Shown here: one piece after another, positions 37,434 through 53,855 of the stretch | How the letters are laid out: each line of letters opens with the position of its first letter | Numbering within the stretch: the first letter of the stretch is position 1 | Source of the DNA: Lachnospiraceae bacterium | GTDB taxonomy: Bacteria; Bacillota; Clostridia; Lachnospirales; Lachnospiraceae | DNA length: 64,000 nt | Assembly: GCA_017618075.1 (NCBI GenBank) | Contig: JAFZUY010000012.1 | Coordinates: 62,001-126,000 of the forward strand | Direction: 5' to 3' | Made by a program: the position numbers and the translations under genes | Notes under the pieces: generated by a model | The model's database searches: none | What the model saw: only the letters and a program-made list of their open reading frames with translations | Told to the model about the DNA's origin: nothing

Positions 37434-37569
37434 CGTAATTTGCGGGTATTGGGAATTAAACATATATAAGTCACCATACCGTATATTTAATATATTTATA
37501 TAAATACTATTATTAAGATAAGATAGTTGTTTTGTTATTCTAATCAGGTATGTGTGAGAGGTGAATTTT

Positions 37570-39456
37570 ATGGCTGAAACTTTGAACTGCAGATGCTGTG
37601 GGGGTGTCTTGGATGTTAAGGGAAGTTTGTGCGTATGCAAGTTCTGCGGTGCGACGAACTTCATTTCTCTGGTTGCTTCAAAAAACATCAATCAGCTCAA
37701 TCGTGCAAATAAATTAAGACAGGAACGTGAATTCGACAATGCGGCCAGAATTTACGACGTCATTTTGGTCGATAATGATCCTACAGCCGACATTCTCTGG
37801 TATCGTACGCTCTGCGAATACGGTATCGAATATGTTCCCGACCCTGTATCGGATAAATATTTTCCGACACTTCACAGAATAAAAGACGAGAGCATTTTCA
37901 ACTGTAAATATTTTAATCAGGCTCTTGAATTGGCCGAAGGCACTCAAAAAGAAACACTTTTAAAAGAAGCAAAATACATAGACGAAGTTCAGAGGAAATA
38001 TCTGAATATTGCGGCAAACGAAGATCCTTATGATGTGTTTATCTGCTATAAGGAAACAGATCTTGATACAGGTGAAAAGACCGAAGACGTCGAATTGGCA
38101 GAGGAACTTTACAACGAACTGACCCTAAAAGGATATAAAGTATTTTTTGCAAGGGAAACCCTTAAAGAAAAGTTAAGCATAGATTTCGAACCCTATATAT
38201 TTGCGGCATTAAAAAGTTCCAAAGCAATGGCGGTAATCGGTACCAGGGCAGAGTATTTCACTTCGGTCTGGGTTAAAAACGAGTGGGGAAGATTCCTAAG
38301 ACTCATGGATAAGAACCCCGAAAAGCAGATTTTCTTTGCGTGTAACGATCCCGAAGAACTGCCAAGGGCTTTTGCTGCCAAACAGGCTCAGCTTTTGGGA
38401 AAACCAAATGCAATCAAGAATCTTGCGGACAATATAGACAACTTTTTAAATCGCAATAACGCTTCTGAAACAACACAACCCCCAAGAAATATATATCAGG
38501 AAGAATTTGACAAAATCATTGAGACTAAAACACGTGAGTTTGTAAAAGACTTTCGTATGTCTGATACAGGCAAGTTGAGAAAAGAGGCACTGGATGATAT
38601 CGAAAAGAATGCAGATGTGGTTGATTATTACAACAACAAAGACAGACTGACATTTGCACTGGGAATATCAATTTATCTGAGCGCATTTGTTTTTATGATT
38701 TCGCTTCTGGTTATTTTTTCGTATACATGGTTAGATTACTGGGACAGTTATGTCCTGGCGACACTTTTGAGCTTACCGCTTATAATAGCCGGGACGGCTG
38801 TATTGCTTTCATATAACTGGGTTTTGGATTTGATTACAATCTCTTTTATGATGGTTGTTTTGTTAATCTCGACATTCGGACGAAGTGAATTTACAAACTT
38901 TTTGACTTTTGTGGCCGTTTATGCTCCGATTGCGGTATATAGTATTACAAGTCAGGTTGCAGACAGTTTTAACAAGTTTAAGCATAGAAGAAGCAAGGCG
39001 AGCCTGGAAGTAAAAAAAGGACTCGAAGATATTAAAGAGATCTCAAATATGGCAAGTACTGAATTAACCGAAGCGGCTTCGAATCTGTTAAGACAGTATA
39101 AAGAGAAAAACGGTATCCTTTCCGGTATTAAAATCAAGGATGATGATTATTTCAAGGCACTGGAAAATTTTAATTACATGTATGAATCGGCTGAAAGAAA
39201 GTATAAGAAATACGTTGACGTTTCCGATTCCGAGGCCCGAAAATCTCCGGAAAAAGAAGAATCAATATTTGGTACAACCATACTGGCTTCGTTTCTGACT
39301 CCTTTTACCTTTGTATCTTATATCGGAGCAGTATTGGATATAGTACTTGACAAATACAGAGAGCGCAGACACAGATATGCAATATGGGTATTATCTTTAA
39401 ATATAATTGTGATTTTGGGCGGTATAACAATATTTATCTGCACTATGAGATGGTAA
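37570..39456 (+). CDS. Zinc-ribbon/TIR/transmembrane protein, copy 1
   Basis: This 628-residue protein begins with a zinc ribbon (Cys7/Cys10 and Cys23/Cys26), then a helical, TPR-like segment (about 30-150). A TIR domain (about 154-285) starts YDVFICYKETD and contains WVKNEW. Glu238 in that motif aligns with the catalytic glutamate of NAD-cleaving TIR domains, so NADase activity is possible. The C-terminal 270 residues hold about five or six predicted membrane helices (e.g. around 360-435 and at the end). The ATG at 37570 is chosen for GAGAGGTG just upstream. It is the first gene of a probable operon running through the acyl ligase and radical SAM genes. No sharp promoter was identified in the AT-rich 37434-37569. 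Confidence 0.82.
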   Translation: MAETLNCRCCGGVLDVKGSLCVCKFCGATNFISLVASKNINQLNRANKLRQEREFDNAARIYDVILVDNDPTADILWYRTLCEYGIEYVPDPVSDKYFPTLHRIKDESIFNCKYFNQALELAEGTQKETLLKEAKYIDEVQRKYLNIAANEDPYDVFICYKETDLDTGEKTEDVELAEELYNELTLKGYKVFFARETLKEKLSIDFEPYIFAALKSSKAMAVIGTRAEYFTSVWVKNEWGRFLRLMDKNPEKQIFFACNDPEELPRAFAAKQAQLLGKPNAIKNLADNIDNFLNRNNASETTQPPRNIYQEEFDKIIETKTREFVKDFRMSDTGKLRKEALDDIEKNADVVDYYNNKDRLTFALGISIYLSAFVFMISLLVIFSYTWLDYWDSYVLATLLSLPLIIAGTAVLLSYNWVLDLITISFMMVVLLISTFGRSEFTNFLTFVAVYAPIAVYSITSQVADSFNKFKHRRSKASLEVKKGLEDIKEISNMASTELTEAASNLLRQYKEKNGILSGIKIKDDDYFKALENFNYMYESAERKYKKYVDVSDSEARKSPEKEESIFGTTILASFLTPFTFVSYIGAVLDIVLDKYRERRHRYAIWVLSLNIIVILGGITIFICTMRW

Positions 39457-39482: not shown

Positions 39483-41666
39483 ATGGGAAATGAGTTTTTA
39501 AACTGTAGGTGCTGTGGGGGTGTACTCGATACTTTTTCAAACCTCACCGTGTGCGAACACTGTGGCGCTACCAACTTTATATCGGATGTTGCCAACAAAA
39601 AAATCTTTCAGTTAAACCGCGCCAACAAATTAAGACAGGAAAGCGAGTTTGACAATGCTGCAAGAATCTATGACAACATACTTGAAGAGTATGGCCCGAC
39701 GGCTGATATTCTCTGGTATCGTGCGCTTTGCGAGTATGGTATAGAATATGTTCCTGATCCTATATCGGATAAGTACATTCCGACGCTTCACAGAATAAAT
39801 GATGAGAGTCTTTTAGACTGCAGTTTTTTTAAACAGTCAATCGAATTATGCGAAGGCGAGCAGAAGGAAACCCTCTTAAAAGAAGCAAATTACATAGATG
39901 AAGTTCAGACCAAATATCTCAACATTGCGGCAGACGAGGCACCTTATGATGTTTTTATCTGCTATAAGGAAACCGATTTGGATACGGGAGAAGAGACCGA
40001 AGACGTTAAACTGGCCGATGAACTTTACAAAGAACTAACAAAGAGAGGATATAAAGTATTCTTTGCCAGAAAAACTCTCGAAGAAAAACTCAGCATCGAA
40101 TACGAACCCTATATATTTGCTGCGTTAAAAAGTGCCAAAGCAATGGCTGTGATTGGCACCAAAGCAGAGTATTTTTCGTCTGTTTGGGTTAAGAATGAGT
40201 GGGGAAGATTCCTTAAACTCATGGAAAAGCACCCTGAGAAGCAGATATTCTTTGCATGTGACGATCCCGAAGAACTGCCTCGTGCCTTTGCTTACAAACA
40301 GGCTCAGATTTTAGGAGAAAAGGGCGCGATTAAAAATCTCGCGAATAATATTGACAGCTTTTTAAACGGTAATAATACCGCCAAGACTCTGTCGTCTGAT
40401 TCTGAAAGGGATAAGTTGTATAACGAAATACTTTCAAAACTTGAATCCGGTGAAGAAAATGGACCAAGGTTATTAATTAACAATTTTATTTCCCGTTACC
40501 CCGGTTATGCTCAGGGATACTGGTTAAGAATGCTTTATACAAATAAAGCCAAACCTTCAAACATTAAAAAACTGCCGCGTTATCTGTATGCAGATCCCGA
40601 TTACAATAAGGCAGTCACCCTTGCAGGTGGGAATTTGAAAGAAGAGTATACACAGATTGCGGCAAGCTGTAACGGTAATCTTAAATATCAGGATGAATTC
40701 AGCAAGATCGTCAGAGAAAAAGCAATAGATTACGTAAATGGTTTTGATGAAACCAAATCGGGTCAGCAAAAAGAAAAGATTATTGAAAAGATAAGAAGAA
40801 ACGTTTCAAAGGTAGATACTTATAACAACAAGCTCAGATTTTCGTTTGCAGCCGGATACAGTATTTTCTATATAGGTGTTTTTCTTTTGTTTTTGATTTC
40901 TATGATATTTGATTTATCAAATCTTTATTACATGGAAGAAATAAAATATGCCTTAATGTTCAGAAATCTTCTTTGTGCAACCATTATTTTAGCTGGAATA
41001 GCTATAGCTCTTTCGTATAATATGGTTTTGGATGTAATTACAACCGCGACATGTGCTGTACTTTTAACTATTTCCATATTTAACCCTTATGAAGGATTTT
41101 TCTGGATTGCTTTTGCTGTTTTGGGTTCGATGGGTACTTACATTTATACCTCTCAGATATCTTCTTTAAACGAAAACAAGTGGTTTAGAGAAGATGCTAG
41201 CAGAAGAATAAAAAGTGAACTCGAAAAACTGCAAAAGGTAGTAAGCACTGATGCCAATGAGGATATGCGAGAGATTGCCTTTAAGCTTTCAAAACAGTTC
41301 ATGGAAGAAAAAAATATCGATTGTATAGTTGAAGTAAAAGAAGAAGATTATATAACCGAACTTGAAAAAATCAATAAAATTTATGAATATGCAGAAGACG
41401 AATATACGAAATACATAGAGGTTTCAATTCCTAAAAAAATAGATATGGAAAGCTATTTTACAAAAGAATCCGAATTGAAAAAAGAATCCGTACTGAGTAC
41501 GGCTGCCGGAGTATCTATGATGTTTTTGATTGGATTACCTTCTGCTTTGGGAATCATAGATTTAACCACAGATAAGTATAAGAGGTATAAACATACCGCT
41601 TCAATCGTTGCGTTGATAGGATCGATATTATTTACTATTTTCTTCTTTTGGATAGCTGAAATGTAA
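39483..41666 (+). CDS. Zinc-ribbon/TIR/transmembrane protein, copy 2
   Basis: Paralogue of the preceding gene, 727 residues. The zinc ribbon has Cys8/Cys11 and Cys24/Cys27. The TIR domain starts at about residue 155, with Glu239 in WVKNEW at the catalytic position. It is longer because of an insertion of about 100 residues after the TIR domain (about 300-400, with LLINNFISRYPGYAQGYWLRML, helical and TPR-like). The C-terminal half again has several membrane helices. The copies are closely similar through the TIR domain and diverge after it. It follows copy 1 by 26 bases and precedes the acyl ligase by 32, with no terminator between. Confidence 0.82.
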   Translation: MGNEFLNCRCCGGVLDTFSNLTVCEHCGATNFISDVANKKIFQLNRANKLRQESEFDNAARIYDNILEEYGPTADILWYRALCEYGIEYVPDPISDKYIPTLHRINDESLLDCSFFKQSIELCEGEQKETLLKEANYIDEVQTKYLNIAADEAPYDVFICYKETDLDTGEETEDVKLADELYKELTKRGYKVFFARKTLEEKLSIEYEPYIFAALKSAKAMAVIGTKAEYFSSVWVKNEWGRFLKLMEKHPEKQIFFACDDPEELPRAFAYKQAQILGEKGAIKNLANNIDSFLNGNNTAKTLSSDSERDKLYNEILSKLESGEENGPRLLINNFISRYPGYAQGYWLRMLYTNKAKPSNIKKLPRYLYADPDYNKAVTLAGGNLKEEYTQIAASCNGNLKYQDEFSKIVREKAIDYVNGFDETKSGQQKEKIIEKIRRNVSKVDTYNNKLRFSFAAGYSIFYIGVFLLFLISMIFDLSNLYYMEEIKYALMFRNLLCATIILAGIAIALSYNMVLDVITTATCAVLLTISIFNPYEGFFWIAFAVLGSMGTYIYTSQISSLNENKWFREDASRRIKSELEKLQKVVSTDANEDMREIAFKLSKQFMEEKNIDCIVEVKEEDYITELEKINKIYEYAEDEYTKYIEVSIPKKIDMESYFTKESELKKESVLSTAAGVSMMFLIGLPSALGIIDLTTDKYKRYKHTASIVALIGSILFTIFFFWIAEM

Positions 41667-41698
41667 CAGGAAATAACTTACAAAGGCAGGGCATAAAA

Positions 41699-43315
41699 AT
41701 GGATTATCCGTATCTTGATACGGTCATATACGATAACTTTTATGAGATGCTCAAAGGCAGATATGAAACAAAGGCCAAAACCACAGCCATTCGTTTCATG
41801 GATAGAGAGCAGATAACAGACATATCGTATGAAGATATGATAAAAGAAACTTCCCTTATCGGACTGTATTTAAAGACGCAGGGTATTGAGGGAAAGCATA
41901 TCGGTATTTTTTCGGAAAACCGTTACGAATATATAACCATATATATGGCAACGGTTATGAAGAATGTTATAGTACCGCTTGACAAGGAGATTACTTCAAA
42001 GAATCTTTCCGAATGTGTAAAGAATTTTGATGTTGATTATCTCTTAGTGACCGACGAGACTAAACAAAAAACAGAAAGCGCTGAATTTTCAAAGCCTGAC
42101 AATCTTAAGATTTTAAACATTGACGACGAGGATTTTAAGAAGGTATTTAAAGACAAATCGGCCGATAAAGAAAAATGCATTGAAGAATTTTTTGAATATG
42201 TAAAAGATACGGATAAAGACAGATTTGCCGTTCTTGCATCCACTTCGGGAACGGACGGGGCGATGAAGGGCGTAATGCTAAGCCAGTACAATGTCATTAC
42301 AAACATTCGCGGTACGCTTGAAAACAATGTCCTTAAAAATCCGACCTTTGCATTTCTTCCGATGAATCACACATACGGATTTAACCCCTGCATTTTGGCC
42401 ACGATTTATAACGGTACGACTCTTTGTTTAAACCTTAAAACAAAATACCTGCTTCGTGATCTAAGGACGTTTAATCCGTTCTTCTTTGGTGCGGTTCCGA
42501 TGGTAATCGAGGGAATGTATGATTCCATCATCAGAGAAGTCAAAAAGCAGAATAAAGAAAATACCTTTAACCGTGCAATTAAAATTTGCAAGTTCTTCAG
42601 AAAATTCGGTATAGATTTAAGACATATATTCTTCGGGAAACTTATCTGCAAAAACTTACGCCTCGTGGTAAACGGCGGAGCGGCGCTTAATGCAGATTAT
42701 GTGAATAAGTTTGACGAAATAGGTATTACGATTTTAAACGGATACGGCTTAACCGAGTGCTCGCCCACAATAGCGGTTTCAAGAACGGGCAACAATGTGG
42801 TCGGAAGCGCCGGAACCATTATGAAAAACATAGACGTCAAAATAGCCGAGGATGGTGAAATCCTCGTAAAAGGTCCCTGCGTAATGCTTGGATATTACAA
42901 GAACGAGGAAGCTACCAAAGCCATTATGAGGGATGGGTATCTCGCGACCGGAGATATCGGATATACGGATGGTAAGGTTATTTTTGTAACCGGCAGAAAG
43001 AAAAATCTCATCATCCTTGAAAACGGCAAAAACGTTCCGCCGGAACTTTTGGAGAGTAAGATTAATTCGATTCCCTATGTAAAGGAGAGCATAGTGGTTT
43101 CAAAGAAAGTGAACGATAGAAGCAATATCCTTTATGCGATAATAGTTCTTCATGACGAAGAAAAGCAGGAATTCCTAAAAGATGATATCGCAAACATAAA
43201 TAAAGATTTGCCTTCATACATGCAGATAACCGATTTTGAGGTAAGCAAAGACGAACTAAAGAAGAACAGTTCAAAGAAGATTATAAGAAGCGTGTATGCA
43301 AATAAAAATGAATAA
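41699..43315 (+). CDS. Acyl-AMP ligase (AMP-binding, long-chain acyl-CoA synthetase-like)
   Basis: Adenylate-forming enzyme of 538 residues that activates a carboxylic acid with ATP. The P-loop is STSGTDGAMKGVMLS. The adenylation motif is GYGLTECSPTIAVS, and ATGDIGYTDG is followed by GRKKNLIILENGKNVPP. The C-terminal Lys is probably in KKNSSKKIIRSVY. Its organisation is close to FadD-type ligases. The free acyl carrier protein encoded 14 bases downstream suggests that it loads an acyl group on that protein, not on CoA; this is inferred. Confidence 0.88.
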   Translation: MDYPYLDTVIYDNFYEMLKGRYETKAKTTAIRFMDREQITDISYEDMIKETSLIGLYLKTQGIEGKHIGIFSENRYEYITIYMATVMKNVIVPLDKEITSKNLSECVKNFDVDYLLVTDETKQKTESAEFSKPDNLKILNIDDEDFKKVFKDKSADKEKCIEEFFEYVKDTDKDRFAVLASTSGTDGAMKGVMLSQYNVITNIRGTLENNVLKNPTFAFLPMNHTYGFNPCILATIYNGTTLCLNLKTKYLLRDLRTFNPFFFGAVPMVIEGMYDSIIREVKKQNKENTFNRAIKICKFFRKFGIDLRHIFFGKLICKNLRLVVNGGAALNADYVNKFDEIGITILNGYGLTECSPTIAVSRTGNNVVGSAGTIMKNIDVKIAEDGEILVKGPCVMLGYYKNEEATKAIMRDGYLATGDIGYTDGKVIFVTGRKKNLIILENGKNVPPELLESKINSIPYVKESIVVSKKVNDRSNILYAIIVLHDEEKQEFLKDDIANINKDLPSYMQITDFEVSKDELKKNSSKKIIRSVYANKNE

Positions 43316-43329
43316 ATGGAATACTAAAG

Positions 43330-43563
43330 ATGTACGAAAAAATTGTTGAGATTCTAAAAGACAAATACGGTATCGAAAATGTTACGCCCGAATCGAATTT
43401 TAAAAAAGATCTGGGGCTTAATTCTTTTGATTTGATGGAACTTGCATTTGTGGCAGAGGAAATACTCGGTGTTGAGATGAAAGAAGACGCATACCGTAAG
43501 GCAGAAACCATAAAGGATATCTGCGATTATCTTGAAACGCTCGGAGCACGCAATGAAAACTGA
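43330..43563 (+). CDS. Acyl carrier protein
   Basis: This small acidic protein of 77 residues has the four-helix carrier fold. The phosphopantetheine site is LGLNSFDLMEL with Ser32; the usual DSL is NSF here. It differs from housekeeping fatty-acid ACP and is encoded between an acyl-AMP ligase and two transferase-like genes, so it is probably a dedicated carrier. Its 3' end overlaps the next gene by 11 bases. The PPTase encoded at 13374 could activate it. Confidence 0.9.
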   Translation: MYEKIVEILKDKYGIENVTPESNFKKDLGLNSFDLMELAFVAEEILGVEMKEDAYRKAETIKDICDYLETLGARNEN

Positions 43564-44638
43564 GATTGCCGACAGTAAAAAACTTCAGAATAAATTCCTG
43601 TCTTTTCGTAAAAAAATATACGGCGAGAAGAAGCTTTATGTCGACAACAGTTTTTTTATGCTAAAAGAGATTTTCTCCGACAAGCTTCATTTCACGAAGA
43701 GCTTGAGCATTACACCATTAATGGTTGAAGATGATGAAAACAATATCCTTTGCGAGGGAATAATTGCGGTTGCAAGAGATTTGCCTGAGTATGTGCAGCT
43801 TTGTTTTTTTGAAGCACTCGAGGGAGTAAGCGAAGCAGTAAATCTGCTTGTAGACGAGGCAGGTAAAATCGGGAAAAGCAAGGGCTGTAAAAGACTGGTA
43901 ATCGGCCTTTACGGACATGTGAATTACGGACTCGGTTTTCTTGATTCGCATTTTGATAAAGTCAATTCTTTTTCATCACCCGGAAACCCTTCTTTTTACA
44001 ACGATTATTTCCGTTCGCTTAAATGCGAAGAGGTTAAGCTTAATTCGTATTTTACGCATTCCCTGGATGGTAGACTTATGCGCTACGAAAAGATTCTTGA
44101 GAAGCTTAACCGCGAATATGAATTTAAGAAATTCGACAAAAAGCACTTCGAAGAATATTCGAAGATGTATACGGATTTAAACAATAAATGTTTTACCGAT
44201 CACAAATACTATTACGTCCGCGATTACAAAGACGATGAGGAAATGTTAAAAGAACTCTTTCTTTTCATGAAGGAAGATTCTTTGATTTTTGCGTTTAAGG
44301 ACGGGAAGCCTGCGGGCTTTATCCTCTGGTACCCTGATTTTAACGAGCTTGCAAAGCCCGGCGAAGCGTTCGGTACGAAACATTATTTTAAGAATATTTT
44401 CGGTAATAAAAAAATTAAAACCTGCAAGGTTATGGAATACGGAGTACTTGATGAATATAGGGGAGTGGGTCTTCCCTTTGCTTTGATTGCGCATGTTTAT
44501 TCGATACTTTCGAATTATGGTGTAAGTCAGGTTGAATCCTCATGGATACTCGCGGATAACGAAGACTCAAACAGCTTTTGTAAAGCTTTCTGCGATGAAC
44601 TTTACAAAGAATACGTGGTTTATGAAAAAGAAATTTGA
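43553..44638 (+). CDS. Tandem-GNAT-fold acyltransferase-like protein
   Basis: This 361-residue protein resembles the family with two GNAT-like halves. The N-terminal half contains a VNYGLGFLDSHFD segment and NPSFYNDYFRSL. The second half has LIFAFKDGKPAGFILWYPDFNE, then MEYGVLDEYRGVGLPFALIAHVY (acetyl-CoA-type loop) and ESSWILADNEDSN. It probably transfers an acyl or aminoacyl group from the carrier protein or CoA. The ATG at 43553 has CGGAG upstream and overlaps the ACP gene, which suggests tight coupling with it. The exact reaction is unknown. Confidence 0.65.
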   Translation: MKTEIADSKKLQNKFLSFRKKIYGEKKLYVDNSFFMLKEIFSDKLHFTKSLSITPLMVEDDENNILCEGIIAVARDLPEYVQLCFFEALEGVSEAVNLLVDEAGKIGKSKGCKRLVIGLYGHVNYGLGFLDSHFDKVNSFSSPGNPSFYNDYFRSLKCEEVKLNSYFTHSLDGRLMRYEKILEKLNREYEFKKFDKKHFEEYSKMYTDLNNKCFTDHKYYYVRDYKDDEEMLKELFLFMKEDSLIFAFKDGKPAGFILWYPDFNELAKPGEAFGTKHYFKNIFGNKKIKTCKVMEYGVLDEYRGVGLPFALIAHVYSILSNYGVSQVESSWILADNEDSNSFCKAFCDELYKEYVVYEKEI

Positions 44639-45659
44639 TGACTCTTTTAAAGAATATATCTGCGAGAATCCTACGGAGATTTTCGAGCATATGAAGAATG
44701 CACGTTTTGCCGGGGAATTATTTGACGAGAGCGGAGACTTGCCTTTTCCTTTTACGCTTTCAATGCTTACTCTTTTAAAAACTGCCAATCCTTTAGAGCA
44801 GAAATATTATTACATTGAAAACGATTCGAATTACGCTTTTTTTACTGTCTATGAAAACAGAATGAATCTTTTTACATACGGAAAAGCCGAATGGTTTATG
44901 AATATTCACACTATAGCTTTCCCCTGTTCGTTGAGCAATAACGGCTTTATTACGAACAATGTAAAATGGATGCTTTCCTACATTAAGACCATAAAAGGCT
45001 GCAAGCTTGTACTTAACCTCGATGAAAAAACGGATATAAAAGGCATGAGCTTTGGCGAAACGCTTCCGACCTGCGTGTTTGCAATTCCCGAAAACATAAA
45101 AGATATAAAGACCTATATGGACTCTTTAAGAAGTCCTTACAGAAGAAGAATTAATATTGCAGTTAAAAACTGCAGCGATATAGAAATAAAAAGAATTAAG
45201 GATGATTCGATTGATATTCATCCTTTGTATTTGCAGACTTACGAAAAATCCGAATATAAACTCGAATGTTTAAACAAAGAGTTTTTTGATAAAACCGATG
45301 GTGAAAAACTTGTTTTTTTACGAGATAAAAAACCGGTCGGATTTGTTCTTTTAAAAGAAACAAAAAAAGAGCTTGTCTTTATGTTATGCGGTATGGATTA
45401 TACGCCTGATAAAGACAATGCGGATTTGTATTTTTTCATGCTTTTAAAGATAGTGGAATATGCGCTTGAAAAAGGATTAAGGGTAATTGATTTCGGACAG
45501 ACCTCCGAGAAAACGAAGCTTAAATTCGGAGCAGTCCTTAACAAAAAATACTTTTATGCGCATCATTCCAATCCTTTTTTAAATATTTTTGCCATGGTCG
45601 GAAAACATATGCTTGAATACAAATATGATTTTCCCGAATTCCATGTATTTAAGGAGTAA
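44622..45659 (+). CDS. GNAT/FemAB-like acyltransferase
   Basis: This 345-residue protein has a C-terminal half like FemAB/BioF2-type GNAT transferases: SPYRRRINIAVKN, KLVFLRDKKPVGFVLL, FFMLLKIVEYALEKGLRVIDFGQTSEKTKLKFGA. The DFG(Q)TS segment is characteristic. The N-terminal half is poorly conserved and may be a degenerate GNAT domain. The start ATG at 44622 lies inside the previous gene (17-base overlap) and the ribosome site is weak, consistent with coupling. Its role is probably acyl or aminoacyl transfer in the same pathway; the substrate is unknown. Confidence 0.6.
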   Translation: MKKKFDDSFKEYICENPTEIFEHMKNARFAGELFDESGDLPFPFTLSMLTLLKTANPLEQKYYYIENDSNYAFFTVYENRMNLFTYGKAEWFMNIHTIAFPCSLSNNGFITNNVKWMLSYIKTIKGCKLVLNLDEKTDIKGMSFGETLPTCVFAIPENIKDIKTYMDSLRSPYRRRINIAVKNCSDIEIKRIKDDSIDIHPLYLQTYEKSEYKLECLNKEFFDKTDGEKLVFLRDKKPVGFVLLKETKKELVFMLCGMDYTPDKDNADLYFFMLLKIVEYALEKGLRVIDFGQTSEKTKLKFGAVLNKKYFYAHHSNPFLNIFAMVGKHMLEYKYDFPEFHVFKE

Positions 45660-45661
45660 AA

Positions 45662-47089
45662 GTGAACGTTCTTTTGTTCAGACCGCGACCTGACAAAGAG
45701 ACCATAGGACTTCAGAATGTAATGATCTGCGAGCCCTTAGAGCTCGAGTATATTTCAGCGAACATCGAGGCGCTGGGACATACATGTACTATCGTGGATA
45801 TGATAATCGAAAAGAAAAACGTGCCGTACTTTGTGAAGCTTTACAATCCCGATGTTGTAGGCATCACAGGGTATATTTCGCATGTCAACATTATGAAAAG
45901 ATATGCGAAAGAAGCCAAAGAAGTAAATGAAAACATAGTGACGATTATAGGCGGAGTTCATGCGGAGGTTAATCCCGCGGATTTCGAATCGCCCTACGTT
46001 GATTATATTATCCGTGCGAATGGCATCAGAACCTTTATTGATATTTTAAACAAACTCGAAAAAGAGAAAAACAATCCCAAAGAGAATGATGGCTCAAATA
46101 AGTCCGAAATAATCGGAGAAGAAGATGAAATAGAGTGTATCTATGTACCGGGTAAGAAACCTCCTAAAAAAGATACAACCTTTAATTATCTTTATCCCGA
46201 CAGAGACAAGGTAAACAAATACCGTTCGAAGTATTATTACATGTTTCACAGAAACTGTACGCTTATTAAGACTTCGTTCGGCTGCCCGTATAACTGTAAA
46301 TTCTGTTTCTGCCGTCAGATAATGGATGACCAGTATTTCGCAAGGGATTTGGAAGATATCGTAAATGAACTTGCGACGATTCCCGAGACAGAGATTTATA
46401 TAGTTGATGACGACTTTTTAGTCGGAAGGGATAGAATCCTTAAGTTCTGCGACCTCCTCGAACAAAGAGGCATTGAAAAGAAATATCTTATATACGGCCG
46501 TGCGGATTATATTGCAGCAAATGAAGATGTAATTAAGCGATTTAAGGAAGTCGGATTAAGAGCAGTTATAGTAGGCCTTGAATCCTGCGATTCCAAACAG
46601 CTTGACGATTACAACAAGCGTACCAATGTTGCCATAAACGAAAAGGCCGTCGGTATTTTAAAGAAATACGATGTCGAATGCTACGGTACATTTATTTTGG
46701 GACTCGACTGGACCTGGGATGACTTTAATGCATTATACAAATGGATTAAAAAGCTTGGCCTTGTATTTGTAAATCTACAGCCCTTAACTCCACTTCGCGG
46801 AACGGATATTTACGAAAAATTCAAACCCAGGTTCATTGTGAGAGAGGATGAATACGAGAAGTGGGATCTGGCACACCTCGTGGTTCGTCCGGACAATATT
46901 TCCGTCAGAAAATATTACTGGTATACGATGGTTTTATATTACAGGATTACGGCTAATCCTATAAGCGGCTGGTACATGGTTAAAAAGTACGGTCTTCACG
47001 ATACGCTTAAATTAAGCATTGGTGCGGTTGCGGTTAACAACCAGTATTGGAAGAAATTTATTGAAGGTGAAAAATGCAAGAAGAATTAA
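45662..47089 (+). CDS. B12-binding-type radical SAM enzyme 1
   Basis: This 475-residue protein has an N-terminal cobalamin-binding-like Rossmann domain (about 1-140; no DxHxxG base-off motif) and a radical SAM barrel. The iron-sulfur site is C208-PYN-C212-KF-C215. It shares YIVDDDFLVGRDRIL, YGRADYI, GLESCDSKQLDDYNK and FILGLD...TPLRGTDIY with the next three genes. An Asp/Glu/Lys-rich insertion at about 128-175 is specific to this copy. It starts with GTG at 45662, two bases after the previous stop. It probably acts on an ACP- or lipid-bound acyl chain (methylation, ring formation or C-C coupling), which is inference from context. Confidence 0.85.
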   Translation: MNVLLFRPRPDKETIGLQNVMICEPLELEYISANIEALGHTCTIVDMIIEKKNVPYFVKLYNPDVVGITGYISHVNIMKRYAKEAKEVNENIVTIIGGVHAEVNPADFESPYVDYIIRANGIRTFIDILNKLEKEKNNPKENDGSNKSEIIGEEDEIECIYVPGKKPPKKDTTFNYLYPDRDKVNKYRSKYYYMFHRNCTLIKTSFGCPYNCKFCFCRQIMDDQYFARDLEDIVNELATIPETEIYIVDDDFLVGRDRILKFCDLLEQRGIEKKYLIYGRADYIAANEDVIKRFKEVGLRAVIVGLESCDSKQLDDYNKRTNVAINEKAVGILKKYDVECYGTFILGLDWTWDDFNALYKWIKKLGLVFVNLQPLTPLRGTDIYEKFKPRFIVREDEYEKWDLAHLVVRPDNISVRKYYWYTMVLYYRITANPISGWYMVKKYGLHDTLKLSIGAVAVNNQYWKKFIEGEKCKKN

Positions 47090-48402
47090 GAGTATTGCTT
47101 ATTCGTCCCAAATACACATCTCTGGTAGCTCACCTTGAGCCCCTCGGACTTGAATACCTTATGGGGCTTGCAAGGGATATGGGCATTCCATGCGATATCC
47201 ACGATGAATTCGATCATCCGTGGACATTTCGCTTTTCAAGAATGTGTCGCGTCATAAAAAAGGGCAATTACAATTACATAGGTCTTAATGCGAATGCCAA
47301 TACTGTGGATTATATCAACAAGCGTGCAGCACAGCTTAAGAAAAAATTTCCCGATATCAAAATTATGGTAGGCGGTCCCGAAGCGGAGATGAACTATAAG
47401 GAATTCTGCGTGGATGATGTTGACTTCGTATATTACGACAACGGTCTGTCGACATTAAAGAAAATGTGGGAGTCTGATTTATCAAGTGAAGTACTTGATA
47501 AATTAAGCGGTATTGCTTTTAAGAAAGACGGTGAGTGGGTCATAAAAGAAAAGGGTGAACCCGTTTGCGGATTTATCAACAAGCCCGACAGAACTGCCTT
47601 TTACAGAGGTCTTAAGAAAAATTACATTTTCATGAAAGGCAAATTTGCCTTAAGCAAGGCATCGTTTTCGTGTCCTTTTAACTGCGCTTTCTGTTATTGT
47701 ACGAAGATGAATTCAGGGGCTTATACAGAGCGTGACATCATGGAAGTTGTCAATGAAATCGAAGAGATTAAGCATGATAAAATCTGGTTTGTCGATGATA
47801 CGTTTTTCTTCCACAAGGAGAGAGTTGAGACCTTCTGTAATGAGATAATAAAGCGTGGAATCAAGAAGCATTTCATGGCATATTCGAGAGCCGATTTTAT
47901 TGCCGCACATCCCGAAGTTTTGCCTCTTGCATATGAAGCAGGATTCAGGGATATTTTAATCGGTCTTGAAGCGATAAGCGACGAAACGCTTGATGAATAT
48001 AACAAGCAGACATCCAGAGACGATAACATTATGGCGATTAAAAATCTTCATGATGCGGGAATCGTATGTAACGGCCTTTTTGTAATAAACTACACGGCTA
48101 CGAGAGACGATTACAGAAAGCTTATTAAATTTATTCATGAGAATAATCTTTTATGGGTTGTATTCGGAATTTTCACACCTTATAAGGGTACGGATGCCTA
48201 TGATGAATATAAGGACAAGGTAATTAACTTTAAGTCCTGGAGATTGGACGGTACGCATATTACGCTTAAGCCTACCAATATGTCGTCGCTTGAATATATG
48301 CTAAGGTACTATTGGATACATGTTTTGACATATCCTAAAATAATGGTTCGAACGCTGTTTGGAACCGCATACGATACGAAGATAAAGGGCTGGTTTAAAT
48401 GA
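47074..48402 (+). CDS. B12-binding-type radical SAM enzyme 2
   Basis: Paralogue of the previous gene, 442 residues. The cluster motif is C200-PFN-C204-AF-C207. It has IWFVDDTFFFHKERV, YSRADFI, GLEAISDETLDEYNK and GLFVINY...TPYKGTDAY. The N-terminal Rossmann part starts RVLLIRPKYTSLVAHLEPLGLEYLMGLA, as in cobalamin-binding radical SAM proteins. It overlaps gene 1 by 16 bases and gene 3 by four. It is closest to copy 3, with which it shares IMVGGPE, DGEWV/NGEWF and the length. Confidence 0.85.
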   Translation: MQEELRVLLIRPKYTSLVAHLEPLGLEYLMGLARDMGIPCDIHDEFDHPWTFRFSRMCRVIKKGNYNYIGLNANANTVDYINKRAAQLKKKFPDIKIMVGGPEAEMNYKEFCVDDVDFVYYDNGLSTLKKMWESDLSSEVLDKLSGIAFKKDGEWVIKEKGEPVCGFINKPDRTAFYRGLKKNYIFMKGKFALSKASFSCPFNCAFCYCTKMNSGAYTERDIMEVVNEIEEIKHDKIWFVDDTFFFHKERVETFCNEIIKRGIKKHFMAYSRADFIAAHPEVLPLAYEAGFRDILIGLEAISDETLDEYNKQTSRDDNIMAIKNLHDAGIVCNGLFVINYTATRDDYRKLIKFIHENNLLWVVFGIFTPYKGTDAYDEYKDKVINFKSWRLDGTHITLKPTNMSSLEYMLRYYWIHVLTYPKIMVRTLFGTAYDTKIKGWFK

Positions 48403-49712
48403 CACAGAAATACATGTTTGTCAGAGTACATTATGATAAAAGAGTCGCAAGCCTCGAGCCATTGGGGCTTGAGTATTTAATGGCTGCCGTTAAGGCTGAA
48501 GGGAAGTTTGGCCTTATACACGACGAAAGCATTGAAAGTTCTTTCGGACGATTCTCGAGACTTCTTAAAAAAGTGGATGATAACGGCATTACGATAGTCG
48601 GCTTTTCGATAATGTCAAATACCGCATGGTATGTGCTTAAACTCATTCACAAATTAAAGAAAGCCAGACCTGATGTAAAGATTATGGTAGGCGGTCCCGA
48701 AGTTGTAGTAAATTTTGAGGATTTTATGATAGAAGATGTGGACTACGTGTCTTTTGACAACGGTCTTGATTCTTTCAGACTGGCACTAAGAAATGACTTT
48801 GACGAAGAGGTAATCAAAACCTGTACAGGCTTTGCCGGAAAGATAAACGGAGAGTGGTTTTTAAATAAAAAGGGCGAGCCGATAAGTGATTACGGTTTAC
48901 TTCCCGACAGGAGTTTCTTTTATGAGAACAGATCCAAATTCCGTGTGCTTGCAAAGGGCTGTTTTTCGATGATGAAGACCGCATTTTCCTGTCCGCAGAA
49001 CTGCAAGTTCTGTATCTCAAGACAGTTTAACAGCTGTACCTACAGGGAAAGAACCGTGGAAGACGTAATCAATGAAATCATATCCATCGACAACGATAAG
49101 ATATTTATTATAGACGATGATTTTCTGGTAAACAGAGACCGCGTTCTGGCTATCTGTGAAAAGCTTATAGAACTTGATTTAAAAAAGACTTTTATGATCT
49201 TTGCGAGAGCGGACAGCATCTGCAGATGCGAGGATATTTTCCCGATTATCTACAAAGCGGGTTTCCGCGATATGTTAGTCGGCCTTGAAGCGGTTGAAGA
49301 TTCGACACTTGAAAAATACAACAAAAATTCGAGCGTTGAACTAAATATGCGTGCGGTTAAAATCTTACGCGAATACGAAATGGTATGCGTGGGACTTTTC
49401 GTAATCAACTACGATTTTAAGCACAAGGACTTTATGAACATCAACAAGTTCATCAAAAAGGAAAAGCTTATATGGGTGCTTTTTAGTATATTAATTCCCT
49501 TTAAGGGAACGCCCGTATATGAGGAAAACAAAGACCGACTCTACCATTACAAATACAGAAGAACGGGCGGTACGAGCGTACTGATGAAACCCTCGAATAT
49601 GCCCATGCTTTTGTTTAAGCTCGAGTTTCATTTTCTTTACTATGTAAATTATCCGCGTATTTACTGGGCCGGTTTAACACATATGTTTAACAAAAGATAT
49701 AAAAACAAATGA
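48399..49712 (+). CDS. B12-binding-type radical SAM enzyme 3
   Basis: Third tandem paralogue, 437 residues. The cluster motif is C198-PQN-C202-KF-C205. IFIIDDDFLVNRDRVL, FARADSI, GLEAVEDSTLEKYNK and GLFVINYDFKHKDF are the counterparts of the other copies. It has overlaps of four bases with both neighbours (ATGA type). The near-identical architecture with diverged loops suggests successive steps on one substrate, or different positions of a chain. Confidence 0.85.
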   Translation: MTQKYMFVRVHYDKRVASLEPLGLEYLMAAVKAEGKFGLIHDESIESSFGRFSRLLKKVDDNGITIVGFSIMSNTAWYVLKLIHKLKKARPDVKIMVGGPEVVVNFEDFMIEDVDYVSFDNGLDSFRLALRNDFDEEVIKTCTGFAGKINGEWFLNKKGEPISDYGLLPDRSFFYENRSKFRVLAKGCFSMMKTAFSCPQNCKFCISRQFNSCTYRERTVEDVINEIISIDNDKIFIIDDDFLVNRDRVLAICEKLIELDLKKTFMIFARADSICRCEDIFPIIYKAGFRDMLVGLEAVEDSTLEKYNKNSSVELNMRAVKILREYEMVCVGLFVINYDFKHKDFMNINKFIKKEKLIWVLFSILIPFKGTPVYEENKDRLYHYKYRRTGGTSVLMKPSNMPMLLFKLEFHFLYYVNYPRIYWAGLTHMFNKRYKNK

Positions 49713-51067
49713 AAATACTCCTTATCAAGCCGGAAACGGTTGGGATATTCAGTTTTACATACCTTGTAGACCATGAGCCCTTGGAGATGGAATACCTCTA
49801 TACGGTTTTCACGAAGGACGGCCATGAAGCTATAATCTACGACAGAAGGTATGAACCGATATCCCTAAAAAAGAAACTGAATAAGGAAAAGCCCGATGTG
49901 GTTTGCATCACAGGTTATATCACGCAGGAAAAGCTCATAAAAAAGCTTTGTGTGGCGATTAAAAAATTTAGACCTGAGGCTAAGGTTATTTTAGGCGGTT
50001 CGCATGTGGAAATAAATTACGAGAACTTTTATGATTCCAAAGCGGATTACCTTTATCTTTTGTCGGGTTTAGACAATATGTGCAGGCTCGTAAAAGACAT
50101 AGAGAAAAACGATTCTTCAGATATCGAGGAAATCCCCGGTATCTGTTTTAAGAAAGACGGAGAGTGGGTAAGTAACCCCAAGATTTTCGAAACTCCCGAA
50201 GATTTGCCCGTTCCCGACAGAACGCATTTTTACAAGAACAAATTCCGTTTCAGGTATCTGTGCTTTAAACCGCTTGCGCTTGTAAAGAATTCATACAGCT
50301 GTCAGAGAAACTGCAATTTCTGTTTTTGTACCAATCGTAACGGCGGAAGATATGCATGCAGAAGCGTCGACAAGCTCGTCGATGAAATCGCATCTTTAGA
50401 TGTTCCGGCTGTGCATATTACGGACGACAATTTCCTGGTAAACAGAGAGTATCTAAAGGAATTTATAAGGCTCGTAAAAGAAAAAGACATACATAAAAAA
50501 TATCTTATATACGGACGTGCTGATTTTATCGCAAATAACGAAGACATCATAAAAGAACTCGCCGAGATCGGTCTCGCTCTTATTATGGTCGGACTTGAAG
50601 CCACAAATGACGAAGAACTCGATTCGTACAACAAGCATGTATCTCTCCATGAAAACGAAGAGTGTATTCGTATATTATCCGAGAACCATATTTTCTGCGC
50701 GGGACTTTTCATCGTTCATCAGGCGATGACAAAAGAAGATTTCAAAAAGCTTTACAAATGGATTGCTTCAAGGGATATTATTCCGACCGTATCCGTATTT
50801 ACTCCGATGCAGGGCTCTGCGATGTATAAGGAGTATGAGGATAAGCTTATTACCAAGGACGTGACCAAGCAGGATTTATTCCACTGCCTGTTAAAGCCTG
50901 AGCATATGAGTGTAAGGCGCTTTACCTTTGAGTATTACAAGCTTTCGATGGGACTCGCGTTTAAAAACAGAAAATCACCGCTTTATGCGGATAACGAATA
51001 TTTTAAGGGAATGCTTCATATCATTGCGGTAATTCTTTTAAAGATTAAGAGAGTATTTGTACTATAA
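49709..51067 (+). CDS. B12-binding-type radical SAM enzyme 4
   Basis: Fourth tandem paralogue, 452 residues. The cluster motif is C198-QRN-C202-NF-C205. VHITDDNFLVNREYL, YGRADFI, GLEATNDEELDSYNK and CAGLFIVHQAMTKEDFKKL match its siblings. Its N-terminal Rossmann domain and the TPMQGSAMYKEYEDKL segment are conserved too. It overlaps gene 3 by four bases and is three bases from the next radical SAM gene. Confidence 0.85.
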   Translation: MKILLIKPETVGIFSFTYLVDHEPLEMEYLYTVFTKDGHEAIIYDRRYEPISLKKKLNKEKPDVVCITGYITQEKLIKKLCVAIKKFRPEAKVILGGSHVEINYENFYDSKADYLYLLSGLDNMCRLVKDIEKNDSSDIEEIPGICFKKDGEWVSNPKIFETPEDLPVPDRTHFYKNKFRFRYLCFKPLALVKNSYSCQRNCNFCFCTNRNGGRYACRSVDKLVDEIASLDVPAVHITDDNFLVNREYLKEFIRLVKEKDIHKKYLIYGRADFIANNEDIIKELAEIGLALIMVGLEATNDEELDSYNKHVSLHENEECIRILSENHIFCAGLFIVHQAMTKEDFKKLYKWIASRDIIPTVSVFTPMQGSAMYKEYEDKLITKDVTKQDLFHCLLKPEHMSVRRFTFEYYKLSMGLAFKNRKSPLYADNEYFKGMLHIIAVILLKIKRVFVL

Positions 51068-51070
51068 ATC

Positions 51071-52390
51071 ATGAAGAAAAAACTTTTGTTAATCCAGCCG
51101 ACTCCTTACGATCAGTACGGTAAGCTGGTAAAAAAGAAAAAATTATATTTTGTCGGTCTTGCGCTTCCTTTGCTTGCAGCCTTAACGCCCGATGATTTTG
51201 AGGTAGAGCTTTGCTACGAGACGATAGAAGATGTCCCCTTTGACACTGATGCGGAATTAATCGGTATCAGCAGTATGGGTCATGCGGTAATGCGTACCAT
51301 CGATATTGCAAAGAAGTTTAAGGAACTCGGAAAGACTGTAATCCTAGGCGGCTACATGGTGTCCTTAATGCCCGAGGAAGCAAAGAAATATGCCGATGCC
51401 GTAATGATAGGAGACTCCGAGGAAACCTGGGGCGAGATGATAAACGATTATCTAAACGGCACCCTGAAAGAGTATTACAAAAAGAAACTGACCAAGCTTG
51501 AGACTCCGCTTCCGAAATACGAGCTTGTATTAAATAAAAGAATCGGTAATTTTTTGCCGGTTCAGGCAGGAAGAGGATGTACCAAGACCTGCAGTTTCTG
51601 TTCCATATACTGCCTTTATCACGGACAGTATTTAAGAAGAAATATTCCCGATGTAATGCGTGACATTAAGCGTATAAAAGAACTGGGCTTTAAGCAGTTT
51701 CTTTTACTCGACGACAATCTTTTTTCAGACAGAAATTATGCACTTGAACTTTGTAAGGAAATATCCAAAGTAAAAATGCACTGGATGACTCAGTGCTCTA
51801 TAGATATTGCAAAGGATGAAGAACTTTTAACCGCCGTTGCAAAGAGCGGCTGCTATGCGTTAAGCTTCGGTCTTGAGAGCATAAGCCGTGAAAGTCTTGT
51901 AGGCATGCAGAAAGCCTGGGCACATCCCGACGAATATTCAAAACAGCTTAAAATCATCAGAAAGCATGGTATAGATATCTCTACGGAAATGGTAGTAGGA
52001 GCGGAAGGGGATACGCTTGAATCAATTAAGGCTACCGCGAGATTTATCGAGGATAACAAAATTGCCGTACCGAGATTTTATATATTAACACCTATTCCCG
52101 GTACTCAGTATTACGACGAGATGAAAGAGCAGGATCGAATATACAATACCGATATGTATTCCTACAATGCCTGCGAAGCTGTTCATATTCCAAAGAACAT
52201 GACGCCCGAGGAACTGACCAAAGCATACTGGGAGCTTTACAACGATGTATATTCCATCAGGTGTATTTTAAAAAGAACTATCTTTAGTGACTGTCTTATA
52301 AAGAGGCCGTATAATGCGGTATTTTACCTTGGCGTAAATCTTTTTTACAGATATCACATAAAGCACGGAATCGTTCCGAATATTGTATAG
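51071..52390 (+). CDS. B12-binding-type radical SAM enzyme 5 (distinct subfamily)
   Basis: This 439-residue protein is less like the preceding four. The N-terminal B12-type domain is KKLLLIQPTPYDQYGK...LPLLAALTPDDFEVELCYE. The cluster motif is C170-TKT-C174-SF-C177, followed by LRRNIPDVMRDI and LLLDDNLFSDRNYALELC. GLESISRESLVGMQKAWAHPDEY and LTPIPGTQYYDEM place it in the large BchE/COG1032-type group with a DUF4070-like tail (HIPKNMTPEELTKAYWELY). It lies three bases after gene 4, in the same operon. Confidence 0.82.
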   Translation: MKKKLLLIQPTPYDQYGKLVKKKKLYFVGLALPLLAALTPDDFEVELCYETIEDVPFDTDAELIGISSMGHAVMRTIDIAKKFKELGKTVILGGYMVSLMPEEAKKYADAVMIGDSEETWGEMINDYLNGTLKEYYKKKLTKLETPLPKYELVLNKRIGNFLPVQAGRGCTKTCSFCSIYCLYHGQYLRRNIPDVMRDIKRIKELGFKQFLLLDDNLFSDRNYALELCKEISKVKMHWMTQCSIDIAKDEELLTAVAKSGCYALSFGLESISRESLVGMQKAWAHPDEYSKQLKIIRKHGIDISTEMVVGAEGDTLESIKATARFIEDNKIAVPRFYILTPIPGTQYYDEMKEQDRIYNTDMYSYNACEAVHIPKNMTPEELTKAYWELYNDVYSIRCILKRTIFSDCLIKRPYNAVFYLGVNLFYRYHIKHGIVPNIV

Positions 52391-52415
52391 GGATGAATAA
52401 AAGAGGGGGAATAAA

Positions 52416-53855
52416 ATGAGACTGGGAACTTCTTCTCCGACAAAAAATTTTAAAAGATTATTGGCAGGGTTTCTGGCAGCAGGCACAGCATTGATTTTCT
52501 GTGCCTGCGAACTGCCGGGCGGTGAGATTAATTATGGTGATAAGGATAAAGGTACTTACCATGCACATATAGTAAGCTCTGTAGATATACCGATTGAAGT
52601 GCCTGAAGAAAAGCCGGATCCCGGATACAAAGAAACTTACGAATCTGCCATGATGAATTTTGTTGTTCCGAATGATTTTGACAAAATGGAATATTTTTCA
52701 AGGGAAGATTTTGAAGCAAAGAATCCTTCGAAAGAATATTCCTATGATGAAACTTTGGCCGTGACTGAAGCATATTTTTCATATATGGAAGAACTTTATG
52801 ATACGGGCTGGCAGGTTAAGTTTAATTTTATCTGCATTAATAACGACAATCTGCCCGAACTGGTTTATGCATCCTATTCGGGAGATATGTCTGCAGCCGT
52901 ATCCGTCGAATTTCATTTTTGTACGTATGATTTAGATGCCGGTGAAGTAATCGAAATCGGAAGCTTCTGTTCACTGTACGGAATGAGTCTCTTTTATGTT
53001 GAAAGGGAAAATCTTCTCTGGTATTCGGAATATAACGATTATGATTCATATTTGAACACTTATTTTGTAACTGTTAATCAGGACAATAAATTTGAACTGG
53101 TCGCATCTTTTAAGAAGGATTATCTTAATTACGATTCGAACTCTGTGGCGTATGTAAATAATATTGAAACCGATTCGGATACATGTTCGGATTATCAGGA
53201 TCAATTCACTTATCTTAACAAAGAAAGAAAAGAAATCGAGTCTTATTCTTTAAATACGCTGATATCGCTCAAGGGAATCTATGAGTATACCTATAATGAA
53301 TACGAATATGAGAATTACTACAAGCAGTATGAAGATGACTGGCTTGAAGCAGCATATGAGTCTTATGCCGAAGTACTTAAAGAAAAGGCAGATGAAGTAG
53401 GATATTATTTTGCATTTCTTGATGGGGACAATATTCCCGAAATGTTTGTTAAATACGACGACAGTATATGTCTCTTCAGAACCAGTGTTTATAAGGGCGA
53501 TGAAGGTTTTTCAAGATATTCTTACGTAGTGACAAATTCGGAGTTTAACGGAGATATTTTCTTCGCCGATTATTGCAGGATTATTTGTAATAAGTATACG
53601 GAAAACGACAGTATGGAAAACTACAGTCTTTATGGCGGTTATGATGTATATCCGATGCAAAGATATATGCTTTCGGCAGACGGAAAATACTATTTAAACG
53701 GCTGTCCTGTTAAAAAAGAAAGATATGAGGATTTCATCGGAAGGTGGGATGAATATACATTTACCGAAATATCTGAAGATGATTTCTATTACAATAATGA
53801 TGAGAAAAACGTTAAAAAGAATTTCTATGAAGCAATAAAAAATTACAATCCTTAA
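52416..53855 (+). CDS. Predicted lipoprotein of unknown function
   Basis: This 479-residue exported protein has a signal peptide ending in FCAC (Cys29 or Cys31 as lipid site; the lipobox is not ideal). The mature part is very acidic and rich in Tyr, Asp and Glu. Two related segments, NNDNLPELVYASY and DGDNIPEMFVKYD, at about 145 and 340, suggest an internal duplication. No known family is recognised. The ribosome site AGAGGGGG at 52402-52409 is strong. It follows the radical SAM genes by 25 bases without a terminator and may be co-transcribed. Confidence 0.72.
   Translation: MRLGTSSPTKNFKRLLAGFLAAGTALIFCACELPGGEINYGDKDKGTYHAHIVSSVDIPIEVPEEKPDPGYKETYESAMMNFVVPNDFDKMEYFSREDFEAKNPSKEYSYDETLAVTEAYFSYMEELYDTGWQVKFNFICINNDNLPELVYASYSGDMSAAVSVEFHFCTYDLDAGEVIEIGSFCSLYGMSLFYVERENLLWYSEYNDYDSYLNTYFVTVNQDNKFELVASFKKDYLNYDSNSVAYVNNIETDSDTCSDYQDQFTYLNKERKEIESYSLNTLISLKGIYEYTYNEYEYENYYKQYEDDWLEAAYESYAEVLKEKADEVGYYFAFLDGDNIPEMFVKYDDSICLFRTSVYKGDEGFSRYSYVVTNSEFNGDIFFADYCRIICNKYTENDSMENYSLYGGYDVYPMQRYMLSADGKYYLNGCPVKKERYEDFIGRWDEYTFTEISEDDFYYNNDEKNVKKNFYEAIKNYNP

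Follow-up and report, generated by a model that had tools for sequence, protein, structure and literature searches.

What does an operon build that joins an acyl-AMP ligase and a dedicated acyl carrier protein (ACP) with two transferases and five radical S-adenosylmethionine (SAM) enzymes? Such an operon occupies positions 41699-52390 of the window, the whole 64,000-nucleotide stretch of a Lachnospiraceae bacterium contig (JAFZUY010000012.1) analysed here, where nine plus-strand genes follow back to back: the ligase, the ACP, a first transferase (GNAT), a second transferase (FEM) and the radical SAM enzymes R1 to R5. This is a real and conserved biosynthetic operon, apparently undescribed in the literature searched. 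Its product would, with about even confidence on our part, be an N-acylated amino-lipid or lipid-like acyl amide, the chain of which is altered by the B12-type radical SAM enzymes, as proposed at unactivated carbons.

Linkage of the operon and kinship of its transferases

The original prediction, which described nine contiguous genes with gaps under 20 bases, is borne out by intergenic distances of 14, -11, -17, 2, -16, -4, -4 and 3 bases in gene order, with the GNAT start set at the ATG at 43553 and the FEM start at the ATG giving 345 amino acids. The ligase, the ACP and the two transferases that it named were likewise found as Pfam families, the match of FEM lying below cut-off. In other genomes, where it suggested seeking the ligase-ACP-GNAT-radical SAM set, GNAT, FEM and R1 occur together in 35 of the 38 loci with a close GNAT relative, spanning at least 11 Bacillota families by the labels of the genome set. 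Of these 38 loci (L numbers), 35 were tabulated and three more came from a Lachnospiraceae search; they were chosen by GNAT matches at E <= 1e-50 in genus, order and phylum, together with a contig-end fragment from genome G021, four further loci of which three entered the table, Acetoanaerobium noterae and the three Lachnospiraceae loci. FEM adjoins GNAT in 34 of the 35 tabulated loci (in L099 across one intervening open reading frame, ORF), and R5 is found in 28 of the 35 and also in L128, while five of the six GNAT-FEM loci without R5 stop at a contig edge and the sixth, L031, has none within 18 kb. The gene order recurs across many genomes at 22-99% protein identity; this recurrence is more than chance, and the operon is one unit.

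Judged by profile homology and tree position, GNAT is an N-acyltransferase-type protein of the YghO superfamily and not a ceramide synthase by descent. A nine-sequence GNAT profile aligned with E. coli BL21 YghO over 353 columns (hhalign probability 98.4%, E 4.8e-15), and with a 12-sequence profile (hmmsearch) YghO was the sole significant match (E 2.4e-25; next 2.1) among 325 mechanically called ORFs of at least 100 amino acids from seven loci, the locus of YghO included. In 96 hhalign comparisons with the GNAT profile (95 different ORFs, YghO twice) YghO scored 129 and the next ORF 25. The yghO/CC_1154 gene product is described as an acyl-CoA N-acyltransferase required for dihydroceramide synthesis, a pathway of bacterial sphingolipids for which AasR and AcpR are described to load the fatty acid (PMC9386255). 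Sequence searches of the PDB returned, for GNAT, weak matches to single GNAT domains and one unrelated protein and no more, and for FEM no match; PHROGs held no match for either, and the viral contigs searched no GNAT relative. At four loci (L035, L036, L104 and L107) a lone YghO-like GNAT gene adjoins a multi-pass membrane protein, which we take to be DUF819-like.

FEM is set apart from this kinship, as none was found between FEM and YghO and the match between FEM and GNAT is weak and partial (34%, 120 columns). The Acetyltransf_6 (PF13480) match of the window protein reaches 19.2 bits at a cut-off of 22, and the same family was found at E <= 0.1 in all nine FEM family members scanned (best 1.6e-8).

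The ligase carries TSGTDGAMKG, YGLTE, TGDIG, GRKKNLI and KKIIR in a pattern search, which we take to be intact adenylation motifs, and is 21% identical to the fatty acyl-AMP ligase of the E. coli BL21 sphingolipid locus; the ACP is 27% identical to the ACP of that locus. The unusual ACP site, NSF instead of DSL, is present as first noticed, but nothing points to a loss of the phosphopantetheine site, since the aligned operon ACPs keep the serine, as NSF, TSF or SSF.

The lipid context comes from three related clusters of two families (L098, L099 and L100), in which a FeeM homologue and a phosphatidylserine decarboxylase lie between R5 and an R4-type gene. In the two loci scanned FeeM (PF21926) matched at 1.5e-12 and 5.1e-11 and the decarboxylase (PF02666) at 3e-46 and 2.5e-45, while the pair in L100 was identified by BLAST labels. 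Each of these three genomes has a further decarboxylase outside the cluster; of the other 11 genomes searched, six have one decarboxylase and five have none, three of the latter from the genus of the window. The reading of the product as a lipid or lipid-like amide is supported by kinship and context, because GNAT is homologous to YghO over its full length, ligase and ACP are arranged as in sphingolipid synthesis, FeeM and a second decarboxylase occur in three clusters, GNAT, FEM and R1 are linked, and the ligase motifs and the ACP serine are intact. An unusual acyl chain put on an amine or a lipid, as first proposed, would fit the GNAT kinship and these clusters.

Several observations weigh against this lipid reading. 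The set of 325 control ORFs holds few other GNAT proteins. In a tree of 38 rows built by a quick method, the cluster GNATs together with the lone gene of L101 form a clade of their own (Shimodaira-Hasegawa-like approximate likelihood ratio test, SH-aLRT, 99) and YghO groups with lone GNAT genes; acyl donor and acceptor of GNAT may thus differ from those of YghO. Lone GNAT genes, with no other operon genes, occur in L101, L129 and L130. FeeM and the decarboxylase are limited to three clusters of two families, and among the neighbours read by eye, an incomplete survey, no lipid transporter or flippase was seen recurring across families. With the E. coli serine palmitoyltransferase (Spt) as query, no match at E <= 1e-10 was obtained in 15 of 17 operon genomes, so that a long-chain base is not the obvious candidate for the amine; the matches in the other two, G717 and G489, have 33-35% identity and neither genome is from the genus of the window. 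No Spt is found among the operon genes either. As a separate observation, the orphan GNAT gene of L129 (8641-9768) is 59% identical to that of the window, with no FEM or radical SAM gene in 19.9 kb.

Architectures, distribution and surroundings

The window-type order, ligase-ACP-GNAT-FEM-R1-R2-R3-R4-R5 (without R4 in L128; Table 1), stands beside a second form, which comprises GNAT-FEM, an R4-type gene, a class I methyltransferase, R1, R5 and usually the radical SAM gene RX1 in varying order (L028, L031, L033, L088-L092, L094-L100 and L108; no RX1 in L097 and L098).

Table 1. Genes of the operon in window coordinates
Gene	Product	Position	Strand	Evidence and occurrence
LIG	acyl-AMP ligase, 538 aa	41699..43315	+	Pfam AMP-binding 4.8e-50; putative adenylation motifs
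ACP	dedicated acyl carrier protein, 77 aa, site GLNSFD	43330..43563	+	Pfam PP-binding 6e-10
GNAT	YghO-superfamily N-acyltransferase, 361 aa	43553..44638	+	Acetyltransf_1 7.4e-6; YghO profile match
FEM	second transferase, Acetyltransf_6/FemAB-like, 345 aa	44622..45659	+	Acetyltransf_6 0.0014, below cut-off
R1	B12-type radical SAM, core gene	45662..47089	+	Pfam; in each GNAT-FEM locus
R2	B12-type radical SAM	47074..48402	+	restricted to ligase-ACP-R1-R2-R3 form
R3	B12-type radical SAM	48399..49712	+	restricted to ligase-ACP-R1-R2-R3 form
R4	B12-type radical SAM	49709..51067	+	most clusters; absent from L093, L128
R5	separate radical SAM group, core gene	51071..52390	+	56-76% identity to relatives in other genera and families

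Ligase and ACP, which the original prediction had placed at the entry point of the pathway, do not belong to the core shared by the wider operon family. Every uncut cluster in the genus of the window has both, as do L043, L047 and L048 on three further Lachnospiraceae contigs and, beyond the genus, L031 and L128, whereas 11 of the 17 clusters from outside the genus have neither; L088 is cut just before GNAT. L093, composed of ligase, GNAT, FEM, R1 and R5, lacks the ACP, R2/R3 and the methyltransferase, and a distant ligase about 0.6 kb upstream in L099/L100 (22.8-23.1% identity) may be unrelated. Beyond the genus, most clusters have no ligase or ACP, and the methyltransferase, usually with RX1, takes the place of R2/R3. 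Such a cluster is that of Acetoanaerobium noterae, with GNAT, FEM, R4-type gene, methyltransferase, R1, R5 and RX1 consecutive on a 2.6 Mb record labelled as a plasmid. L028 and L031 bridge both architectures, as ligase and ACP are there joined to the second form. The methyltransferase of L028 scores 81.7 bits with the BioC model (cut-off 185), 57 with UbiG and 48.3 with BchM, all far below cut-offs. An ABC-type ATPase, a HypB/CobW-like GTPase and an iron-sulfur protein lie between an RX1-type gene and R5 in two families (L028 1870-3964; L088 7305-9435, the copies assigned by Pfam) and are possibly involved in metal or cobalamin handling.

The operon is rare and patchy, as few genomes matched in each order, phylum and family sampled. 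In the genus of the window the GNAT probe hit 15 of 31 genomes (14 at full length, one cut at a contig end), a lower bound given that these are drafts of 69-100% completeness. With the nine-sequence profile (E <= 0.001), the order gave matches in 24 of 392 genomes and the phylum in 53 of 398, the weak matches inspected being lone YghO-like genes; the 12-sequence profile matched five of 397 Lachnospiraceae genomes at E <= 1e-25. At E <= 1e-40, GNAT matches were present in two of 24 and three of 22 genomes of two other families, and the larger class-level samples comprised 10 and three genomes. The genome of the window is a 2.44 Mb draft of 89% completeness, whose nearest named relatives are Lachnospiraceae bacterium G41, an isolate that carries the operon, and metagenome-assembled genomes (MAGs), including two with titles that mention yak rumen and water buffalo abomasum; relatives with RUG and RUI names are presumably rumen MAGs as well.

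By eye, the flanking genes differ from locus to locus, which suggests transfer or frequent relocation of the operon. TIR-like genes precede it in the window and in L019-L022, followed on the far side by a HAD gene in the window and L019 and by a TIM-barrel and a flavin mononucleotide enzyme gene in L020-L022; other loci have a MATE transporter in L026 and L027, a uracil-permease-like gene in L029 and L030, pyrophosphatase-like and nitrogenase-like genes in L032 and macro/YbaK-like genes in L047 and L048. The TIR-like genes of the window encode tandem proteins (37561-39456 and 39483-41666) with a zinc-ribbon-like start, a TIR-like domain recognized by eye and membrane segments, the second gene stopping 32 bases upstream of the ligase; at least two such genes also precede the operon in L019-L022, and none was seen before it in L025-L032.

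Further upstream in the window (13374-14042) lies a gene for an Sfp-like phosphopantetheinyl transferase, assigned by eye, which could serve the ACP. As a co-inherited partner of the operon it was discarded, matches in 29 of the 31 genus genomes, with and without the operon, making it uninformative. Promoter-like matches in the operon are equally uninformative (28 observed, 33.3 expected). In 41500-52700 of the window 19 terminator-like sites, all intragenic, compare with 9.2 expected from shuffles (sd 3.5).

Radical SAM enzymes R1 to R5

Five B12-type radical SAM enzymes had been predicted. The Pfam Radical_SAM domain is above cut-off in all of R1-R5, and the CxxxCxxC motif is found in all 110 radical SAM proteins collected, these five included. 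The B12-binding domain (cut-off 32.1 bits) reaches 63.3 bits in R1, 48.9 in R3, 51.9 in R4 and 32.4 in R5, with R2 just under at 31.5. The five do not, however, form one group. R1-R4 are paralogues, R1 being 31-34% identical to R4, R3 and R2 in its own genome, where its other matches are one gene on another contig (28%) and R5 (22%); R5 is a separate, far more conserved group. A tree of the 110 proteins resolves the groups R5, R1, R4/RX3, RX1/RX2, R2 and R3, built by a quick method with SH-aLRT values only and with long-branch warnings that cover the joining of R2 with R3 and the placement of the R4-type rows of L096 and L108.

Curated models place R1-R4 closest to HpnR, the hopanoid C-3 methylase, and BchE, whose domain order they share. 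R1 to R5 score 155.1, 113.1, 122.6, 145.2 and 58.1 bits with the HpnR model (TIGR04367, cut-off 650) and 139.4, 111.9, 105.6, 134.9 and 81.6 bits with the BchE model (TIGR02026, cut-off 481), and R5 scores 79.4 bits with TIGR04072 (cut-off 360). Among the best 25 families per protein no curated cut-off is reached by any of the five, so that family membership does not narrow their chemistry, which may be methylation, oxidation, cyclisation or coupling. Most B12 radical SAM enzymes are presumed methylases, and the known exceptions are described to form rings or to rearrange their substrates (PMC13142503). In the PDB, R1 matches AprD4 (E 1.7e-10) and TokK (1.4e-6) over part of its length; in PHROGs, R5 has one weak radical SAM match.

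Split genes were seen for R5 (two ORFs, L032 15764-17104) and R1 (two ORFs, L090 11572-12859), and stops fall within the R5 match of genome G453. Relatives of R5 in Treponema, Paraclostridium and Synechocystis were set aside as clusters, since each is the sole radical SAM gene of the stretch inspected. On a Citrobacter portucalensis plasmid (L118 12723-24818) five radical SAM genes, each closest to R5 among the proteins compared (29-31%), accompany a GH3-type ligase, an N-acetyltransferase, a PAP2 phosphatase and a fatty acid desaturase; as a profile comparison found no relationship between this N-acetyltransferase and GNAT, the cluster is an analogue at most. The match in Streptantibioticus cattleyicolor was recognized by eye as a different cluster, in which a B12-type radical SAM gene, 27% identical to R1, lies by acyl-activating, asparagine-synthase-like and further genes on a plasmid (L109 3302-12974; by eye).

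Candidate products and related pathways

In the route that we favour, the ligase would activate a free fatty acid and load it onto the dedicated ACP, R1 and R5, together with R2-R4, would methylate, oxidise or couple carbons of the chain, GNAT would move the chain onto an amine, and FEM would perform a second transfer that either brings in an amine-bearing unit or adds a second chain. Clusters that lack ligase and ACP would probably draw the acyl group from the general acyl-ACP or acyl-CoA pool, since both genes are dispensable in the wider family. The substrates, the order of the steps, their chemistry and a role in the membrane are what we infer from the gene families and their linkage. A more specific version, tentatively put forward and in itself rather unlikely, is a new anaerobic amino-lipid class in which a YghO-type transferase would act without Spt, and the backbone would be built by the obligatory R1/R5 through branching, cyclisation or chain-head carbon-carbon coupling, tuned by the exchangeable R2/R3 or methyltransferase and RX1, and spread by transfer through many Bacillota families.

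A secreted acyl-amide natural product such as a signal, a siderophore-like compound or an antibiotic, with a short or medium acyl chain and outside the membrane, is the best of the alternatives, and we consider it unlikely though worth keeping in view. The patchy occurrence in the genus and the differing flanks suggest an accessory trait, and B12 radical SAM enzymes described as other than methylases include OxsB of oxetanocin A and PbsB of a ribosomally synthesized and post-translationally modified peptide (RiPP; PMC13142503), but no exporter, regulator or resistance gene was seen recurring across families in the incomplete inspection by eye, and the phosphatidylserine decarboxylase of three clusters indicates lipids. 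A RiPP pathway itself was dropped, as no small precursor gene was seen between the operon genes, which overlap or nearly do so.

Diabolic acid occurs in related rumen bacteria, on which no paper was found in the openly licensed literature, and a membrane-spanning lipid of this type, in which a radical SAM enzyme would join two fatty acid tails and the transferases would cap the ends, is an improbable product of the operon. Mss and Tes, to which such an enzyme is likened by description, are reported to couple lipid tails (PMC11868695), yet one coupling enzyme would suffice where two to five radical SAM enzymes are present.

Marginally less probable again is a modification of the cell wall or of a cofactor, with FEM as an aminoacyl transferase and the methyltransferase and radical SAM enzymes acting on a ring as BchM and BchE do. 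The L028 methyltransferase indeed scores with the BioC, UbiG and BchM models, one of nine FEM relatives has a FemAB_like match and R1-R4 score with BchE, but each of these scores falls well short of the curated cut-off of its model, and the acyl ligase and ACP would have no place. A D-alanine (Dlt) carrier system was discarded too, as none of what we take to be its partner genes was found in the operon by Pfam. That the operon is a ceramide-like pathway proper, its radical SAM enzymes acting on the sphingoid base, is very improbable despite a ligase, ACP and YghO-superfamily transferase set as in E. coli BL21, given the general lack of Spt matches, the low identities of ligase and ACP and a GNAT outside the YghO clade.

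The pathway which we prefer has partial counterparts in known systems. Caulobacter and E. coli BL21 make ceramides with a set (AasR, AcpR, Spt, CerR and YghO/CerS) that also combines a fatty acyl ligase, a dedicated ACP and a YghO-superfamily transferase (PMC9386255); the window operon resembles it by protein family, with low identity of ligase and ACP and a GNAT in a separate clade, and in place of Spt it has a FemAB-like transferase and the five radical SAM enzymes; no CerR-type dehydrogenase/epimerase was found by Pfam among the operon genes, the only part of the genomes searched for it. Anammox ladderane clusters, described as putative lipid clusters, share a B12-type radical SAM enzyme, a SAM methyltransferase and acyl activation, and the available text of the report does not mention YghO-like or FemAB-like transferases (PMC2649909); unlike them, the window operon holds no FabF/FabZ-type elongation gene, and the score of R5 is well short of the cut-off for TIGR04072. 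FeeM-type N-acyl amino acid synthases would, by their family name, transfer an acyl group to an amino group, but the operon has no FeeM and its transferases match other GNAT families.

No description of the gene set was found in titles and opening parts of abstracts among the papers listed from the openly licensed literature, subscription papers lying outside the search, and within that literature the original statement that no characterised cluster has this composition stands. The seven genes of A. noterae, which include no ligase, and the five of L093 are small sets for expression and lipid mass spectrometry. If the proposal is true, members of several anaerobic Bacillota families, among them rumen Lachnospiraceae, Acetoanaerobium and others, would make a lipid or acyl amide that is absent from the papers searched and involves two to five B12 radical SAM steps, and vitamin B12 would thereby be connected with the membrane chemistry of bacteria in gut and rumen.

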